IMG/VR virus record: IMGVR_UViG_3300047388_000010
Span: 1-32,865 of that record
DNA length: 32,865 bases
Direction: 5' to 3' (one strand)
Origin: a virus
How positions within the stretch are numbered: the stretch's first letter is position 1; the number at the start of each line of letters is the position of its first letter. The notes beneath the pieces were generated by a model, which ran no database searches, was not told where the DNA came from, and was given only the letters and a program-made list of their open reading frames with translations. Shown here piece by piece: positions 10,849 through 32,793 of the stretch. Made by a program: the position numbers and the translations under genes.

Positions 10849-10867
10849 ATCATAAGTCCTTAAGTGG

Positions 10868-10873
10868 TATAAT
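10868..10873 (+). promoter_or_regulatory. Extended -10 promoter for the holin gene
   Basis: GTGG-TATAAT, a perfect -10 with the TGN extension, and no clear -35. It lies 20 bases after the phosphoesterase stop. A strong AAGGAGG ribosome site (10888-10894) follows, five bases before the ATG at 10900. Confidence 0.65.
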
Positions 10874-10899
10874 TAGGTATCACGACTAAGGAGGTTAAG

Positions 10900-13618: not shown

Positions 13619-13624
13619 TATAAT
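13619..13624 (+). promoter_or_regulatory. Extended -10 promoter
   Basis: CGTGG-TATAAT eleven bases after the helicase stop, with no clear -35. It would start the mRNA near 13631 and drive the small gene at 13649 and the primase. Confidence 0.6.
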
Positions 13625-13648
13625 TCTATCAACTAGATAGGATTTACC

Positions 13649-13939
13649 GTGCATAACGACATTAAGCGTTTCGAATTGACTGGTACTGTGACAAGCGGTA
13701 CGTTTTTACAGACAAGAGAAAGGCTAATCCATGACGTTGAGGCCGGTATGAGGGATGAAGGTTTCATCCCTATACTGGACCTCATCCCACAGTTTACCCG
13801 CGAATACGACGCGGACACCGAAACGTTCTCTTTCACATTATCCGTATATGGAACACACGTAGGAGAAGAGAATTCGTGGCAACAAGCAGGAATGATGAAT
13901 GGTCGTCTGGTAGAGAAGTATTCTCAGCCAGTGAAGTAG
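13649..13939 (+). CDS. Hypothetical protein ahead of the primase
   Basis: 96 residues from a GTG with TAGGAT about eight bases upstream. It is a compact alpha/beta protein: FELTGTVTSGTF, a helix RERLIHDVEAGMRDEG, then FIPILDLIPQFTREYDADTE and a strand FSFTLSVYGT, a pattern I have seen in small phage replication-region proteins but cannot name. The final residues overlap the primase frame by 64 bases, the longest overlap in the window, which argues for coupled expression. Confidence 0.6.
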   Translation: MHNDIKRFELTGTVTSGTFLQTRERLIHDVEAGMRDEGFIPILDLIPQFTREYDADTETFSFTLSVYGTHVGEENSWQQAGMMNGRLVEKYSQPVK

Positions 13940-16189: not shown

Positions 16190-19100
16190 ATGAAGTACCA
16201 CGAGTTACACTTGCACGACCATTACTCAGTTCTGGACGGTGTTAACACCCCGACCGAGTACATGAAGAGGGCTAACGAGTTGGGCATGACCCACTTGGCC
16301 CAGACCAACCACGGAACGCTTTCCGGTTGGCGCGACTTTCAGAAGTCTGCTGCAACAGCCGGTATTATCCCAATTCTAGGTGTCGAGGCATACATCTCAG
16401 ACACAGACCGTTTTGACCGACGCTCAACAAATAAGCGTGCGGACGGTACCAAGGCATTCAACCACATAGGCATCCTTGCCATGAATGAAAATGGCATGCG
16501 CAATGTCAATGCCATGATGCAGGAAGCATGGACAGGCGGGTTCTACTCTAAGCCACGTATCGACATGGACCTGTTAGAACAGCACAATGAGGATATCGTC
16601 GTGCTCTCAGGCTGCCTAGGTGGTTTGTTGGCATCTGCCTTGACCACAGAGAACGGTCACGTCCCGGATTACCAGCGTGCGCTACAGTTGGCTACTCGTC
16701 TTAAGTTTATTCTAGGTGAGCGTTTCTTCATCGAGATTCAGGGCCACAACCCAGCCTACATCAACGCAGGTCTTTTGAAGATTGCCGAAGACTTAAAAAT
16801 CAAGCCGGTAGTCACATCAGACTGCCACCACGCTCGCAAGGAAGATTTGTGGATTCAAGAGGCCATGCTCATCCTGAGCACCAAGCCTGACATCAACAAG
16901 AGATTTGACTTTACCAAGTCTCAGCAGATGGAGCATCTAGAAAGGTACAACTACCTTTACCCAGACCGCTCACTCACCTTTGAGAAGTTTGGTCTGTATC
17001 TACATGCTGCACAAGACCATGTTGAGGCTCTAGCAAAACAGGGTATCGGTACCGAGCCCATTACGAATACCGACATCATCGCACAGATGGTTGGAGAGTA
17101 TCCACTATACAAGAACCTTGACCTTCTACCGACTCCCGATGCAACCATTGAGGATTTGGATGAGGAACTACGCCGTCAGGCGTTTGAGGGTTTGAAGGAG
17201 CGCGGTAAGGCTGACGACCCAGAGTATGTTGCTCGTGTAGAGGAAGAACTGGCTATCATCAAGCAGATGGGTTTTGCAGTATACTTTCTTATCCTATCTG
17301 ATATCGTTAGATGGGCCAGAGCGCAGGGCATCTTCATGGGTCCGGGTAGAGGTTCTGGTGTTGCATCTTTGGTCAACTATTCTCTATTCATTACCAATAT
17401 TGACCCGATACCCTACAAGTTGCTGTTCTTCCGATTCCTAGACCCAGACCGCCCAGACTGGCCCGACATCGACGTTGACTTTGAGGTCAAGCGTAGATAT
17501 GAGGTTAAGGAATACGTCAACCGTAAGTATGGTTATACCGCTAACATCATGACGTTCACGCTGTTCCGTGGAAAGTCTGCTATCAAGTCTGCCGCATCTG
17601 TTTTCCTTATCCCACAGGGTGAGGTAAACAAGGTTACCAAGATGCTCACTGACGACCCGGACTTCCCGGCTCTAGAGGTTTTCGCAACAAGTGAATCAAC
17701 AGCCGAATTCAGGAGAAAGTATCCTGAGGTTGAGCCGCTGGCACGCGCTCTAGAGGGTCGTATCAAGAGCACGGGAATGCACGCTGGCGGCACCGTTATT
17801 TCCAAGGTACCGATTGACCAGTACGTACCAATGCAAACCGCTACGGACCCACAGGATGAGGCTAAGGGACGTGTGCCGCTCATCGCGGTAGACATGACGG
17901 AGGCTGCCGAGATTGGCCTTATCAAGTACGACTTCCTTGGCTTGAATAACCTTACAGTTATTCTAGAGACAATCGCTGATATCAAAAAGAGGCACGGGGT
18001 AGAGATTGACCCGTACGAACTCATTGACCCAAACGATTTGTTGAAGGAAGACCCAGAGGTTTTGTCCATGCTTTCACAGGGACACACAAAGGCTGTGTTC
18101 CAGTGTGAAGGTGGCCCTTATACTAACCTACTATTGGACATGGGTGGCGTTCAGACGTTCAACGACCTCGTTGCATCCAACGCTCTCGTACGACCGGGCG
18201 CATCTAACTCTAGCATTGGTGCAAACTACATCAAGGGTAAGTTGACTGGTGACTACGAATTCATTCACGCTAGCACAGAGCCGTTCACCAGAGACACCTA
18301 CGGTCAGATTCTATTTCAGGAACAGCAGATGCAACTGTGTACGACGGTCGCCGGTATGTCGATGAGAGACGCTAATCAGGTCCGTCAGGCTATTAGCAAG
18401 AAGGTCAAAGAGAAGTTGGCCGTCTGGGAGCCTGCATTTATTGAGGGTGCAACCAAGACGCTTGGAGAAAAGAAGGCTCAGTTCCTTTGGACCGACTTGG
18501 AGAAGTCTGCTCAGTATGCCTTTAACAAGGCTCACTCAGTAGGTTACTCCTATATCTCATACTGGACTGCGTGGTTCAAGTATCATTACCCGGTCGAGTA
18601 TATGAACGCGGTACTGAACAACGTCGGAGGTACAGACAAAAAGGTTAAGTCCATGTTCTATCTCATGGAGACCAAGCGTCTAGGCGTAAAGGTTATGTTG
18701 CCTCACGTCAACGCTAGTGATGTCAACAACAAGGTTGAGGATGACGGTATCAGAATGGGTCTGTCTTCCATCAAGGGTATTGCGTCTAAGTCTGCTACCA
18801 AGGTAGTAGACGCTGCACCGTTCAGCAGTTATGAGAACTTGAAGGAAGTCAGCGCAACCAAGGGCTCCGGTATAAGTATCGGATTGTTGGCTGCGCTCAA
18901 CAAGATTGGTGGAGCAGCATTTCCAGACAACCCGCGCACCGGTAATGAAAGAGAAAACTTCTACGAGTATCTCAATATTCCAGCATTCACGGTAGACCTA
19001 GACCCGCACATCAAGACGCAGTTCAGGCTTTGCGAAGAATACACACAAGACGGTGCCTTCGTGGTTTGTGGCATGGTTTACAATATCAAGAACGGTCATG

Positions 19101-19528
19101 GCTGGACTCTGATAGAATACGTAGATGAGTCCGGTACCGCTGGAACGTTTACCAACACGTCCACCAAGATTGAAAAGGCCAACATGTATGTCATGTTGGT
19201 ATCAAACAACAGTATCGTCCAGTACGTCACCGTAGATGACCTTGTTAATGGCAAGGCCGGTGCTTTTGGCAAGTATTTGGAGAAGGAAAAACTGGAACTG
19301 AAAGATGGAGAATACCGTTGTATCTCCTATAAGGAACGCAGAAGCAAGGCCGGTAATGAAATGGCAGACGCCGTTTTCACTGACGGCGACAAGAACCTGT
19401 ACCCGACAATAATATTCAGTAAGTTGTTGGGCAAGGCAAAGATTCCATGCCTAACGTCAGCAAAGGTCAGGGCTTTCCTGAATGAGACTGACGATGGGTC
19501 ATACATATTAAAGGAGATTAACCAGTGA
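16190..19528 (+). CDS. dnaE: DNA polymerase III alpha subunit (DnaE type)
   Basis: 1112 residues, with AAAGGA seven bases upstream of ATG. A PHP domain opens the protein (HLHDHYSVLDG from residue 7; TNHG 39-42; GVEAY; SDCHH near 209). The C-family polymerase core carries the catalytic aspartates in PDIDVDF (425-431) and typical DnaE stretches (GPGRGSGVASLVNY; GMHAGGTVI near 530; ALVRPGA; FNKAHSVGYSYISYWTAWFK). The last 180 residues resemble an OB-like domain. It replicates the phage genome in place of the host polymerase. Slightly shorter than bacterial DnaE (about 1160-1180). The PHP TDHG motif reads TNHG. Confidence 0.95.
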   Translation: MKYHELHLHDHYSVLDGVNTPTEYMKRANELGMTHLAQTNHGTLSGWRDFQKSAATAGIIPILGVEAYISDTDRFDRRSTNKRADGTKAFNHIGILAMNENGMRNVNAMMQEAWTGGFYSKPRIDMDLLEQHNEDIVVLSGCLGGLLASALTTENGHVPDYQRALQLATRLKFILGERFFIEIQGHNPAYINAGLLKIAEDLKIKPVVTSDCHHARKEDLWIQEAMLILSTKPDINKRFDFTKSQQMEHLERYNYLYPDRSLTFEKFGLYLHAAQDHVEALAKQGIGTEPITNTDIIAQMVGEYPLYKNLDLLPTPDATIEDLDEELRRQAFEGLKERGKADDPEYVARVEEELAIIKQMGFAVYFLILSDIVRWARAQGIFMGPGRGSGVASLVNYSLFITNIDPIPYKLLFFRFLDPDRPDWPDIDVDFEVKRRYEVKEYVNRKYGYTANIMTFTLFRGKSAIKSAASVFLIPQGEVNKVTKMLTDDPDFPALEVFATSESTAEFRRKYPEVEPLARALEGRIKSTGMHAGGTVISKVPIDQYVPMQTATDPQDEAKGRVPLIAVDMTEAAEIGLIKYDFLGLNNLTVILETIADIKKRHGVEIDPYELIDPNDLLKEDPEVLSMLSQGHTKAVFQCEGGPYTNLLLDMGGVQTFNDLVASNALVRPGASNSSIGANYIKGKLTGDYEFIHASTEPFTRDTYGQILFQEQQMQLCTTVAGMSMRDANQVRQAISKKVKEKLAVWEPAFIEGATKTLGEKKAQFLWTDLEKSAQYAFNKAHSVGYSYISYWTAWFKYHYPVEYMNAVLNNVGGTDKKVKSMFYLMETKRLGVKVMLPHVNASDVNNKVEDDGIRMGLSSIKGIASKSATKVVDAAPFSSYENLKEVSATKGSGISIGLLAALNKIGGAAFPDNPRTGNERENFYEYLNIPAFTVDLDPHIKTQFRLCEEYTQDGAFVVCGMVYNIKNGHGWTLIEYVDESGTAGTFTNTSTKIEKANMYVMLVSNNSIVQYVTVDDLVNGKAGAFGKYLEKEKLELKDGEYRCISYKERRSKAGNEMADAVFTDGDKNLYPTIIFSKLLGKAKIPCLTSAKVRAFLNETDDGSYILKEINQ

Positions 19529-19758
19529 GTGAATCACTACAACAGGTAGAACAGATTGCAGCGTTTACGGCGTTGCTAGTAATCCACGCGGGTGGACACG
19601 TAAAGATTCCATTTGAGACTGTAGAGAATGGCCTACCGGCTGGACACGCGGTACACATGGAATGGGACGATGACAACAACCTTAACTTCTCAATCAAGTC
19701 GATTGAAGAAATTAAGGAGCAGCAGGAGGCAGATAGGATTGCCAATGCCCAGCAGTGA
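19525..19758 (+). CDS. Hypothetical small protein
   Basis: 77 residues from a GTG overlapping the polymerase stop by four bases. It starts with a helix (SLQQVEQIAAFTALLVIHAG), has a short beta section (HVKIPFETVENGLP, then MEWDDDNNLNFSI) and ends in a charged helix (EEIKEQQEADRI). The alanine/valine-rich helix is not long enough to be a membrane anchor. Cotranslated with the polymerase; no family recognised. Confidence 0.55.
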   Translation: MSESLQQVEQIAAFTALLVIHAGGHVKIPFETVENGLPAGHAVHMEWDDDNNLNFSIKSIEEIKEQQEADRIANAQQ

Positions 19759-20197
19759 AGAATTACAGTTTGCATTTGCTCCCGGAGAACTAGAACGAGA
19801 AGACTCAGAATACCATGCCAAAAAGGACGCATTGTCTAGGGAACTAGACAAAATAACTGAAAAGGTTAAGAGTCGTGAAATGGATATGCTTGCCAGCCAG
19901 ATTCACGTCGTCAACGACGACAAGGGATTCTGGATTGACCCGGTAGAGATGGATAAGTGGCAGGCTAAGTTAATGCTTGTTGTTACTGAGGTAGCAGAGG
20001 TAACCGAAGCGCTCAGGAAGTCTCAGGGACCATCAGCAGTAACAGAAGAGTTTGCTGATATCTTTATCAGGTGCCTAGATATCTACCACGTTTTGGTTGA
20101 GGCTGGCGAAGCAGAACCTAATCTTTATCAGGTCATTATTGATAAGGTTGAAAAGAACAAGACAAGACCACCCAAGCACGGTAATCGTTGGGGTTAG
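19745..20197 (+). CDS. MazG-like nucleotide pyrophosphohydrolase
   Basis: 150 residues from the ATG at 19745, which overlaps the previous gene by 14 bases; a longer frame upstream lies wholly in that gene and is ignored. The all-alpha NTP pyrophosphatase pattern is visible: KWQAKLMLVVTEVAEVTEAL with the EVxEV metal ligands, and TEEFADIFIRCLDI with the second ExxD pair. The first 60 residues are an extra helical arm. MazG-type enzymes hydrolyse NTPs or dNTPs, and phages use them to adjust nucleotide or alarmone pools. The ligand pattern EVAEV...EEFAD fits the family well. Confidence 0.75.
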   Translation: MPSSEELQFAFAPGELEREDSEYHAKKDALSRELDKITEKVKSREMDMLASQIHVVNDDKGFWIDPVEMDKWQAKLMLVVTEVAEVTEALRKSQGPSAVTEEFADIFIRCLDIYHVLVEAGEAEPNLYQVIIDKVEKNKTRPPKHGNRWG

Positions 20198-20203
20198 GTC
20201 GCT

Positions 20204-20249
20204 ATTCCCTACTTTCTATGCTATAATGGAACTATAGAAAGTAGGGAAT
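20204..20249. promoter_or_regulatory. Promoter inside a 16-bp perfect inverted repeat ahead of recA
   Basis: Left arm ATTCCCTACTTTCTAT (20204-20219) and right arm ATAGAAAGTAGGGAAT (20234-20249) are exact reverse complements around a 14-base loop. The loop holds TGC-TATAAT (-10 at 20222-20227), so transcription would start near 20234, at the beginning of the right arm. The right arm contains the GTAGGGA ribosome site of the recA gene (TTG start at 20250). Confidence 0.75.
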
Positions 20250-21260
20250 TTGTCAACTATTGAAGAAGTGCTAGCGAACCTAAACCCCAAGACGGCAGAG
20301 GCATTCCGCGTAGCATCAGAAGTAGAAAACGAAATCCTACCAACACCATCGCTCGGCCTGAATATGGCTATGGGCGGCATTGGGTATGGTAGGTTCACAA
20401 CCTTGTACGGTAACAAGGGCGGCGGTAAGACTACGTTCGCGCTACAGCAGGTAGCACAAGCACAAAAAGAAGGTAAGTCCACAGCGTGGATTGACGTAGA
20501 AAAGAATTTCAGTGCGGAGTGGGCTCAGCGCTTAGGCGTTAATACAGACCAAGTTCTACATACGCGCAAGGTCATGTCTATCGCAGACATGACAAACAAG
20601 GGTAGGGAATTAATCACAGCCGGTATTGATGTATTGGTTATTGATTCCATTTCCCAGTTGCTTCCGGCATCATTCTTTGAGGATGCCAAGGGCGACTCCA
20701 AGGAGTTTTCTGAGTTTGGTAAGACAGGCCAGATTGGTACCTTCTCAAAGAACATAGGTACCATGCTTAATACTCTCAACGGAGTAAATGAGAAAACAGC
20801 AATCATCATCATTTCTCAGATTAGAAACAAGATTGGCTCCTATGGAGCCTCTATCTCTTTAATGGGAGGCAATGCGCTAGAGCACGTTCATTCAACGTGT
20901 ATCAAGTTTTGGCGTACGCCGTCAGACATCATTGAGGCAGAGTTCCACGTGGGAGATGGATTGCTGTTGAAAAAGCCGGTAGGTGCTCCGATTACTTGGA
21001 CCATCGAAAAGAATCGCGGTGAAGGCGGTCAGATGTCAAATACCTACGACCTGTATCACACAGGAGACTTTGTAGGAATAGACCTGACTGGCGAAGTCGT
21101 CACTTTTGGTGTAGAATATGGAGTAATAAAGAAGAAGGGTAATTGGCTCACCATCAACGATGAACAGTTCAATGGTCGCAAAGCGGCCATTACCTACCTT
21201 CGTGATAACCCAGTTATCCAAGAGAAGATTTACGGAGAGATTCTTGCCAAATCCATTTAG
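20250..21260 (+). CDS. recA: RecA-type recombinase
   Basis: 336 residues from a TTG directly after an inverted repeat that holds the promoter and ribosome site. Walker A is GNKGGGKTT (54-62), the catalytic Glu is in WIDVEKN (Glu84), and Walker B is LVIDS (129-133). The IIIISQIRNKIGSYG stretch is the L1 region, followed by an ALEHVHST segment of loop L2. It would pair single strands coated by the phage ssDNA-binding protein, for recombination-dependent replication and repair. The short N-terminus and lack of the bacterial C-terminal domain match phage RecA/UvsX forms. The next gene starts 17 bases inside its end. Confidence 0.9.
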   Translation: MSTIEEVLANLNPKTAEAFRVASEVENEILPTPSLGLNMAMGGIGYGRFTTLYGNKGGGKTTFALQQVAQAQKEGKSTAWIDVEKNFSAEWAQRLGVNTDQVLHTRKVMSIADMTNKGRELITAGIDVLVIDSISQLLPASFFEDAKGDSKEFSEFGKTGQIGTFSKNIGTMLNTLNGVNEKTAIIIISQIRNKIGSYGASISLMGGNALEHVHSTCIKFWRTPSDIIEAEFHVGDGLLLKKPVGAPITWTIEKNRGEGGQMSNTYDLYHTGDFVGIDLTGEVVTFGVEYGVIKKKGNWLTINDEQFNGRKAAITYLRDNPVIQEKIYGEILAKSI

Positions 21261-23331: not shown

Positions 23332-23631
23332 ATGATTGGTAATGAATTTACATGCGCCCGTCCCGGTTGTGGTAACAAGTCTTTCAAGACAACTCATAAT
23401 CAAAAATACTGCACGAATGAATGTTGCAGGATTGAGACAAATCGTAAGATTATGGAGAAATACCACGAACGAGTGGCAATTAAGCGCGGTAAGAAGCGAG
23501 AATGCAAGACATGTTCAACCCCTTTGTCCAGATATAATGAAAACGAAGACTGCGCACCATGCCAGACGCGGAAGCGCAAGGAGAATTTGGGAGAGGCAGC
23601 AGCCCTCGTCGGTTCGGTAAATTGGCTGTAA
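23332..23631 (+). CDS. Multi-cysteine zinc-finger protein
   Basis: 99 residues, ATG directly after a leader-peptide stop and with AGAAGG two to eight bases upstream. The N-terminal unit is C8-x4-C13 ... C27-x3-C31 (FTCARPGCGNKSF then YCTNECCR), and a second ribbon is C59-x2-C62 ... C73-x2-C76 (ECKTCST, DCAPCQTRKR). A basic helix joins them (KYHERVAIKRGKKR), so nucleic-acid binding is likely. It ends shortly before the promoter of the RuvC-like gene. I cannot name the family. Confidence 0.65.
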   Translation: MIGNEFTCARPGCGNKSFKTTHNQKYCTNECCRIETNRKIMEKYHERVAIKRGKKRECKTCSTPLSRYNENEDCAPCQTRKRKENLGEAAALVGSVNWL

Positions 23632-23637
23632 TCGTGA

Positions 23638-23643
23638 TATAAT
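23638..23643 (+). promoter_or_regulatory. Extended -10 promoter for a leaderless gene
   Basis: CGTGA-TATAAT; the ATG of the RuvC-like gene begins at 23650, exactly seven bases after the -10. No -35 is evident. No ribosome site could be present in that transcript. Confidence 0.65.
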
Positions 23644-23649
23644 GGTTAC

Positions 23650-24225
23650 ATGGGTTTCGCAGATTTAACTAAGCGCAAGGCGGGTAGAGTTATTGGAATT
23701 GATTGTTCCACTTTCTCACTCGCCTACGCTATTTTTGATGACAACAAGCCGGTAGCGTGTGGAGAAGTCCAATTCAATGGTAGCGATATCTATGAAAGAC
23801 TCAATGACGCAAGGCGCAAGACACAGGCTCTTGTGGACAACGGAATCCTTGTGGGTGACCACATCGGCATGGAGGCTGCTATCGTGGCGAAATCAGGTGC
23901 TCAGGTAGCCATTAAACTAGCCTATGTATACGGCGCGGTATTGGGTGTCTTGATGCAGAATAAGATGAATGTAGAAACAGTAGCGCCTATCACATGGCAG
24001 ACATACATTGGTAATGGTAACTTGAAGACAGAAGAGAAGAATCAAATGCGTATAGATTTCCCAGACCACAAAGATTCGTGGTATCAGAATGAGGGTAGGA
24101 AGAGACGCAAGCAACGCACCCTAGATTTTGCCAAGACCTTCTTCACGATTGCTAGCGACTCAGACAACGTAGGTGACGCTGTGGGTATTGCGTACTACAC
24201 GAGTGAAGCACTTACCCGCCGATGA
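23650..24225 (+). CDS. RuvC-like Holliday-junction resolvase (RNase H fold)
   Basis: 191 residues, probably leaderless. The first strand GRVIGIDCSTFSLAYAIFD gives catalytic Asp18, GMEAA gives Glu75 and the final ASDSDNVGDAVGIAYY gives Asp172/Asp176: the four-acid pattern of RuvC-type nucleases. A lysine/arginine-rich insert (GRKRRKQRT, 149-157) may contact DNA. It would cut branched replication or recombination intermediates so that the terminase can package linear DNA. It overlaps the following HTH gene (ATGA), so the two are expressed together. Slightly longer than bacterial RuvC (about 173). Confidence 0.8.
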   Translation: MGFADLTKRKAGRVIGIDCSTFSLAYAIFDDNKPVACGEVQFNGSDIYERLNDARRKTQALVDNGILVGDHIGMEAAIVAKSGAQVAIKLAYVYGAVLGVLMQNKMNVETVAPITWQTYIGNGNLKTEEKNQMRIDFPDHKDSWYQNEGRKRRKQRTLDFAKTFFTIASDSDNVGDAVGIAYYTSEALTRR

Positions 24226-29520: not shown

Positions 29521-30104
29521 TGAGTCTCATGCCTACCGAGAACGAAGGCGACCGCTTTGCAGAGATGCAAAAAGTCATAGAACTTTATGTTCAAAACATT
29601 AACCCTACGAAAATTGCTAACAGCGTTGGCATTCGTAGGGTTGATGTGCTTTCTCATATAGAGGCTTGGAGAGCCACGGCGGTAGGCTCTGACATAATGA
29701 AGGAACGTGTCGAGGAACTTATTGCCTCCATGGACCAGCATTATTCCTTGCTCATCCAGAAGGCATATGAAATCATTGACGAGGTTGACGACGAGGCTGC
29801 CCTAGAGGGCACCGGTAGAAAGTCAACCATGACCAGAGCGCAGATGCTGTCCCAGAAGTTGGGTGCCCTAAAAGCAATCGCTGACTTTGAGTCAAAAAGA
29901 ATCGACGTTCTACAGAAGAGTGGTCTTCTAGAGGCAGCAGACCTCGGAGATGAACTTGCAGCAATTGAAGAGAAGATGGAAAAGGTCTTCGATATCCTTG
30001 ACGAGTTCTTGTGCGGTAACTGTAGGCCAGTTATCCTAGGTCGTCTAAAGCCACTAATCAGCGGCGAACCAGCCGAGAATGTAGTTGTTGTGGTAAGTGG
30101 CTAA
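29520..30104 (+). CDS. Small terminase subunit (putative)
   Basis: 194 residues from an ATG sharing a base with the previous TAA; the next ATG is four codons on. The N-terminus has an HTH-like segment (NPTKIANSVGIRRVDVLSHI at 28-47), as needed for recognising packaging sites; the middle is a long amphipathic helix (EELIASMDQHYSLLIQKAYE, then IIDEVDDEAALE) for oligomerisation, and the last 60 residues are charged. It overlaps the large terminase gene by eight bases. The DNA-recognition role is inferred from HTH plus position; the sequence itself is not diagnostic. Confidence 0.6.
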   Translation: MSLMPTENEGDRFAEMQKVIELYVQNINPTKIANSVGIRRVDVLSHIEAWRATAVGSDIMKERVEELIASMDQHYSLLIQKAYEIIDEVDDEAALEGTGRKSTMTRAQMLSQKLGALKAIADFESKRIDVLQKSGLLEAADLGDELAAIEEKMEKVFDILDEFLCGNCRPVILGRLKPLISGEPAENVVVVVSG

Positions 30105-32743: not shown

Positions 32744-32793
32744 AGCCGGTGTGCAGTAAGTCGTGGTGATTTTCCTACGCATGCACACCGGCT
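32744..32793. repeat. 12-bp perfect inverted repeat in the leader of the final gene
   Basis: AGCCGGTGTGCA (32744-32755) and TGCACACCGGCT (32782-32793) around a 26-base loop. Inside the loop CGTGG can pair with CC-T-ACG (one bulge), giving a stacked hairpin as RNA. A pyrimidine-rich GTTCCCTTCT follows. It may act as an operator, an attenuator or a 5' stabilising hairpin. Confidence 0.6.

Follow-up and report, generated by a model that had tools for sequence, protein, structure and literature searches.

A promoter within a perfect inverted repeat as a putative RNA insulator of recA translation in a large actinophage

Directly upstream of the recA gene studied here, a promoter-like element and a ribosome-binding site are combined in a single perfect inverted repeat, which raises the question of what this arrangement does to the expression of the gene. 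We analysed the locus in a 32.9-kb virus fragment (32,865 nucleotides; this whole stretch is referred to as the window; the genes and hairpins described in it at recA, at the GTG start 13649 and at the holin gene lie on the + strand). Its source is a large actinophage with affinity to the Streptomyces phages in the family Stanwilliamsviridae (~50-52% identity in DnaE and ~44% in RecA). The nearest relatives found are two IMG/VR contigs, G001 (recA locus L015; DnaE 70% and RecA 60% identical to the window) and G002 (recA locus L032; RecA 64% identical). A DNA-level similarity search of the recA locus against annotated phages gave no match, and a DnaB-profile search gained no further close relative.

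In the window, recA (20250-21260) encodes a UvsX/RecA-like recombinase (PF00154, E 1.7e-28), with a RecA C-terminal domain and a match to the UvsX-like family phrog_97. The TTG start codon at 20250 is supported by the relatives, which have TTG (L032) or ATG (L015) at the matching position. Upstream and in the same direction lie the genes for a DnaE-type DNA polymerase III alpha subunit (16190-19528; PF07733, E 2.1e-71) and a MazG-like pyrophosphatase (~19748-20197; phrog_3301, E 1.6e-15). The repeat is located between the MazG-like gene, which stops 6 nt 5' of the left arm, and recA.

The left arm, ATTCCCTACTTTCTAT (20204-20219), and the right arm, ATAGAAAGTAGGGAAT (20234-20249), form 16 bp with 100% complementarity, and are spaced by a 14-nt loop (20220-20233). 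Located in this loop is the extended -10 element TGCTATAAT (20219-20227), an exact match to TGNTATAAT, of which the first base, T20219, is also the final base of the left arm; no recognisable -35 element was found for this promoter. If the -10 element is followed by the usual 6-nt gap, the predicted transcription start is 20234, where the right arm begins. Because the right arm ends at 20249, abutting the TTG codon, it would constitute the entire 16-nt leader of the own-promoter transcript. Within it lies the Shine-Dalgarno (SD)-like sequence GAAAGTAGGG (20237-20246), assigned from the sequence and its position relative to the TTG start. The anatomy given in the preliminary description, with the promoter in the loop and the ribosome site in the right arm of a perfect 16-bp repeat, is borne out by the sequence.

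No other perfect inverted repeat in the window is as long. In 200 first-order Markov shuffles of the window, the longest stem measured 8-12 bp in 199 cases and 15 bp in one, and none reached 16 bp or more. The exact 16-mer of the arm was found in 11 viral contigs, approximately the number expected by chance for this length, given the size of the collection. The TGNTATAAT pattern occurs five times on the forward strand of the window and never on the reverse strand (13 and 1 times, respectively, in G001). Since these genomes are mostly one-directional, this bias is as expected of real promoters. The recA promoter and the promoters upstream are of the same extended -10 type.

A thermodynamic model gives a cost of 18.1 kcal/mol for opening the recA start region in read-through RNA versus 2.7 kcal/mol in own-promoter RNA; this gap takes no account of ribosomes that terminate on mazG 6 nt upstream and could loosen the stem at its base. 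The excess over shuffled upstream sequence is larger for recA (z 5.6) than for any other of 23 promoter-start pairs drawn from the window and both relatives. The read-through RNA is predicted to fold 4.5 sd better than shuffles, and the leader of the own transcript to be open. Burial of the SD in the former and its exposure in the latter, proposed at first from the letters alone, is thus also what the model predicts.

We consider it probable that the repeat acts as an RNA insulator hairpin around the recA promoter, which shields recA translation from upstream transcription. RNA reading through from the dnaE-mazG operon would contain both arms (the left arm is predicted in read-through RNA only), and with both arms present the recA SD would be folded into the 16-bp stem, resulting in poor translation. 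The promoter in the loop would give RNA starting at approximately 20234, with the right arm alone and the SD free, so that recA output would follow its own promoter and not upstream transcription. The observed basis of this reading consists of the sequence anatomy, the modelled energetics of the two transcripts and the covarying hairpins at terL described below; from these we infer the transcription start, the existence of read-through RNA, the drop in translation and the purpose of the arrangement. We propose insulation of dosage and not a timed early/late switch, because the promoters of recA and its neighbours look alike.

In both nearest relatives the extended -10 element of recA is kept, at 28-29 nt, and the leader is 16-17 nt long with an open SD (opening cost 4-6 kcal/mol). 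A strong perfect hairpin is found at the mazG-recA junction of both, just upstream of the -10 element, with 10 bp and a GCAA loop in one and 16 bp and a 3-nt AAT loop in the other; neither is accompanied by a T-run. Among the three phages, the SD of recA is covered by a hairpin in the window only. The combination of hairpin and promoter at this junction is therefore conserved in kind, but at recA this conservation does not extend to the device that buries the SD. The aim shared by the three phages may be to separate recA from the upstream operon, by different means.

These junctions lend some weight to a different explanation, in which the dnaE-mazG transcript ends at the repeat, a terminator or RNA-processing hairpin overlain by the recA promoter, and SD burial is a by-product: both relatives have their strong hairpin just 5' of the promoter, and in both genomes hairpins commonly precede promoters directly. 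We nevertheless find this explanation unlikely. Whereas intrinsic terminators have a GC-rich stem, a short loop and a T-run, the recA hairpin has an AU-rich stem (5 of the 16 pairs are G-C), a loop of 14 nt and no T-run after it. A terminator would require neither that the right arm starts at +1 nor that it ends at the start codon. The recA hairpin is also missing from the output of a terminator scan, which allows only loops of 3-8 nt.

Other structured elements occur in the same genomes. In both relatives, perfect repeats of 10-16 bp are found at many promoters, where the loop holds the -35 element (TTGACA or TTGATN) and the right arm forms the spacer between -35 and -10, and the arm sequences vary between sites (L047:2925, 3856, 6454 and 15963; L051:11976; L052:1047; L042:14192; L043:1845). 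At a small gene that is orthologous in both relatives (L042:16196-16270, L047:6454-6536), three alternating arms (left, middle and right) are present, of which the middle one can pair either upstream or with the leader; the pairing is kept despite sequence differences. A structured leader-like element, conserved between the window and the relatives (window 32744-32793; L041:161-209; L051:9126-9175) has covarying arms (AGCCGGTGTGCA/TGCACACCGGCT versus GGCCGGTAGGC/GCCTACCGGCC), a conserved loop (GTAAGTCGYGGTG..CCTNYGCA) and a likely TTGACA promoter upstream. Its copy in the window has no match in Rfam, and the genes downstream of it differ in the two relatives. The relatives also have a tmRNA gene and large arrays of tRNA genes (L041 and L051-L052), features that are likewise annotated in the Streptomyces phage NootNoot.

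The geometry of the recA repeat recurs before the large terminase gene (terL) in four genera of the subfamily Boydwoodruffvirinae (Samistivirus, Karimacvirus, Tomasvirus and Coruscantvirus). Perfect stems of 13-20 bp enclose TGATATACT in the loop and carry the SD in the right arm, with predicted opening costs of ~18-33 kcal/mol in read-through RNA versus 1.4-6.3 kcal/mol in own-promoter RNA. As at recA, the extended -10 element lies in the loop, the T of the TG is the last base of the left arm, and the right arm begins near +1; the gene, the subfamily and the arm sequences are different, and the -10 element is TATACT.

Arm sequences differ between these genera, and the pairing is maintained. 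In an alignment of 11 distinct sequences, 97.9% of the cells are paired over 18 pairs, and at seven of the 18 pairs both partners have changed with pairing retained, in 19 cells. The covariation score is 0.283 versus 0.120 for shuffled alignments and was reached by none of 500 shuffles, a test that related sequences can inflate. Controls with slid partners gave at most 2 pairs changed on both sides, and sliding destroys the covariation. The double changes include TCCC/GGGA to CCCC/GGGG, and CCTATATCC/GGATATAGG to CCTAAATCC/GGATTTAGG to CCCAAATCC/GGATTTGGG. Several distinct double changes of this kind constitute direct evidence that base pairing is under selection. The compensatory changes that the preliminary description named as a check are absent from recA, where L015 and L032 have an open SD, and present at terL of the Streptomyces phages. 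Judged by its refuting condition, relatives in which the pairing is broken without compensation, the hairpin at recA is not conserved.

We found no description of the terL hairpin in the open-licence papers searched, which is weak evidence of novelty. Environmental terL relatives do not have such a hairpin, and a scan of NootNoot for repeats with a nearby -10-like match revealed no site of this type besides terL. In the sister subfamily Loccivirinae, the terL junction has a different, tetraloop hairpin without a -10 element inside. That stem-loop (L148-L151) lies directly 5' of the large terminase gene; its tetraloops change (gaaa, ttcg, gtaa) and its stem covaries. A separate inverted repeat, AACCCTAC...GTAGGGTT, lies within the gene that precedes the large terminase gene (window 29601-29642; L046:17844-17885; L051:6131-6190). 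It is conserved in the window phage and both relatives, extends to 17 bp in L051, and is possibly a packaging site or an RNA structure.

The terL arms also bear on the suggestion, made in the preliminary description, that the palindrome may allow control by a repressor. Palindromes flanking a -10 element can be operators, and a dimeric repressor or activator bound here could act at the DNA level on the recA promoter. An unrelated viral contig (L355) has a palindrome spaced identically around a -10 element, with the SD outside the arm. We regard an operator as improbable. The recA arm has no second copy in the 32.9-kb window, even with up to 3 mismatches allowed, and so there is no site shared with other promoters there. 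At terL, complementarity over 13-20 bp persists through the changes in arm sequence, which recognition by a protein does not require. With an arm unique in the window, and arm sequences that are free to change from site to site as long as they still pair, control by a repressor is not supported.

Translational coupling would mean that recA is closed in read-through RNA unless ribosomes at the mazG stop codon loosen the left arm, and the upstream stop codon is suitably close (6 nt 5' of the left arm in the window and ~0-9 nt in the terL cases). It is very unlikely to be the explanation, as a terminating ribosome of standard footprint size would cover only ~5 of the 16 pairs in the window, and coupling leaves the strong promoter in the loop unexplained. 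Extrusion of the repeat as a DNA cruciform, exposing the -10 element as a single strand and modulating promoter opening, would predict the covariation equally but is extremely unlikely, because in the relatives the same promoter element lies outside the loop with the hairpin upstream, so that a loop position is not a promoter requirement, and cruciforms with 14-nt loops extrude poorly.

Hairpins that would act as RNA insulators in the same manner as at recA were found at further genes. Upstream of a small gene after dnaB with a GTG start at 13649, AATTCTATC (13622-13630) pairs with GATAGGATT (13636-13644), which carries the SD, and a -10 element is located at 13619-13624. The predicted opening cost is 14.6 kcal/mol in read-through RNA versus 2.3 kcal/mol in own-promoter RNA (z 4.6), and 11.2 versus 1.6 kcal/mol for the ortholog in G001 (z 3.2). 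Its orthologs in Streptomyces phages lack a promoter hairpin and overlap the gene for the helicase. A weaker site precedes the ATG (10900) of a holin gene (PF16945, E 1e-15): TCCTTA (10857-10862) pairs with TAAGGA (10887-10892, the SD), the -10 element TATAAT (10868-10873) lies between the two arms, and the modelled costs are 13.6 versus 3.2 kcal/mol (z 2.2). In G001, an endolysin-like gene has a perfect 11-bp hairpin over the SD (20.1 versus 2.2 kcal/mol), with a -10 element that lacks the TG extension and an internal promoter that is less certain; in the promoter-start comparison, one gene of G001 has a z of 3.1. Apart from these examples, TGTAATC and GGTTACA flank TGATATAAT at ruvC (window 23627-23652), and the predicted transcription start is the A of the ATG, which would make the transcript leaderless; ruvC of L015 has a different hairpin over the ATG.

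Searches with the loop-plus-inner-arm pattern gave mostly chance extensions, and besides terL only L233, L280 and L355 reach 10-11 bp. L280, on the minus strand of an unrelated viral contig, has the 11-bp repeat CCTTTGTCTAT/ATAGACAAAGG, whose loop contains TGCTATAAT and whose right arm contains AAAGG, with an ATG 8 nt later, and fits the device. L233 was set aside because it reads through many stop codons (perhaps using another genetic code), and L355 was rejected as an example because its SD lies outside the stem.

The trick itself is already known from phage T4, and what is new here is the genes at which it is found. In the T4 genes e, soc, 49 and I-TevI, the SD or start codon is sequestered in long upstream RNA, and promoters beside the ribosome site give transcripts without the hairpin's 5' strand, which are translated well (PMC3014915). 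The mechanism was shown for gene e, with a ~100-fold reduction, and reported for the other three (PMC3014915). The recA repeat resembles these cases in the predicted sequestration of its start region in read-through RNA (18.1 kcal/mol, z 5.6) and in the position of the extended -10 element (20219-20227), which would place +1 at about 20234 and yield a transcript without the 5' arm. The window phage is, however, unrelated to T4, the gene is different, and the stem is longer and perfect. T4 also has a separate late promoter class and a phage sigma factor that provide a timed switch, whereas the recA promoter and those upstream of it look alike. T4-like phages likewise differ in the conservation of the pairing at the same gene (PMC3014915).

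A read-through hairpin mechanism has also been proposed for sigG of Bacillus subtilis (PMC5942855), in that case for a gene on a bacterial chromosome and with sporulation sigma factors. In actinophages, the ESAS of cluster K mycobacteriophages are inverted repeats of ~17 bp just upstream of start codons, similar in size and position to the recA repeat; their imperfect arms follow a consensus shared across the genome, and an mRNA hairpin has little support in the view of the authors (PMC3203893). In contrast, the arms described here are specific to their site and pair perfectly, and the recA arm is unique in the window with up to 3 mismatches allowed.

As a single and tentative proposal, we suggest that the large actinophages of this lineage employ a general insulator, applied gene by gene, with arms particular to each site and a promoter in or beside the loop; that recA, the holin gene, the endolysin-like gene, terL and the small gene of the replication region are thereby deaf to read-through from neighbouring operons; and that the dosage of each of these genes is set by its own promoter, with no separate late sigma factor involved. 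The isolated Streptomyces phages NootNoot, Bmoc, Wofford, Tomas and Coruscant carry covarying terL forms, which makes the device directly testable. If the proposal is correct, the trick of T4 gene e would have arisen independently in large actinobacterial phages, where it would protect replication, packaging and lysis genes, and gene order and co-transcription alone would not predict co-expression in these genomes.
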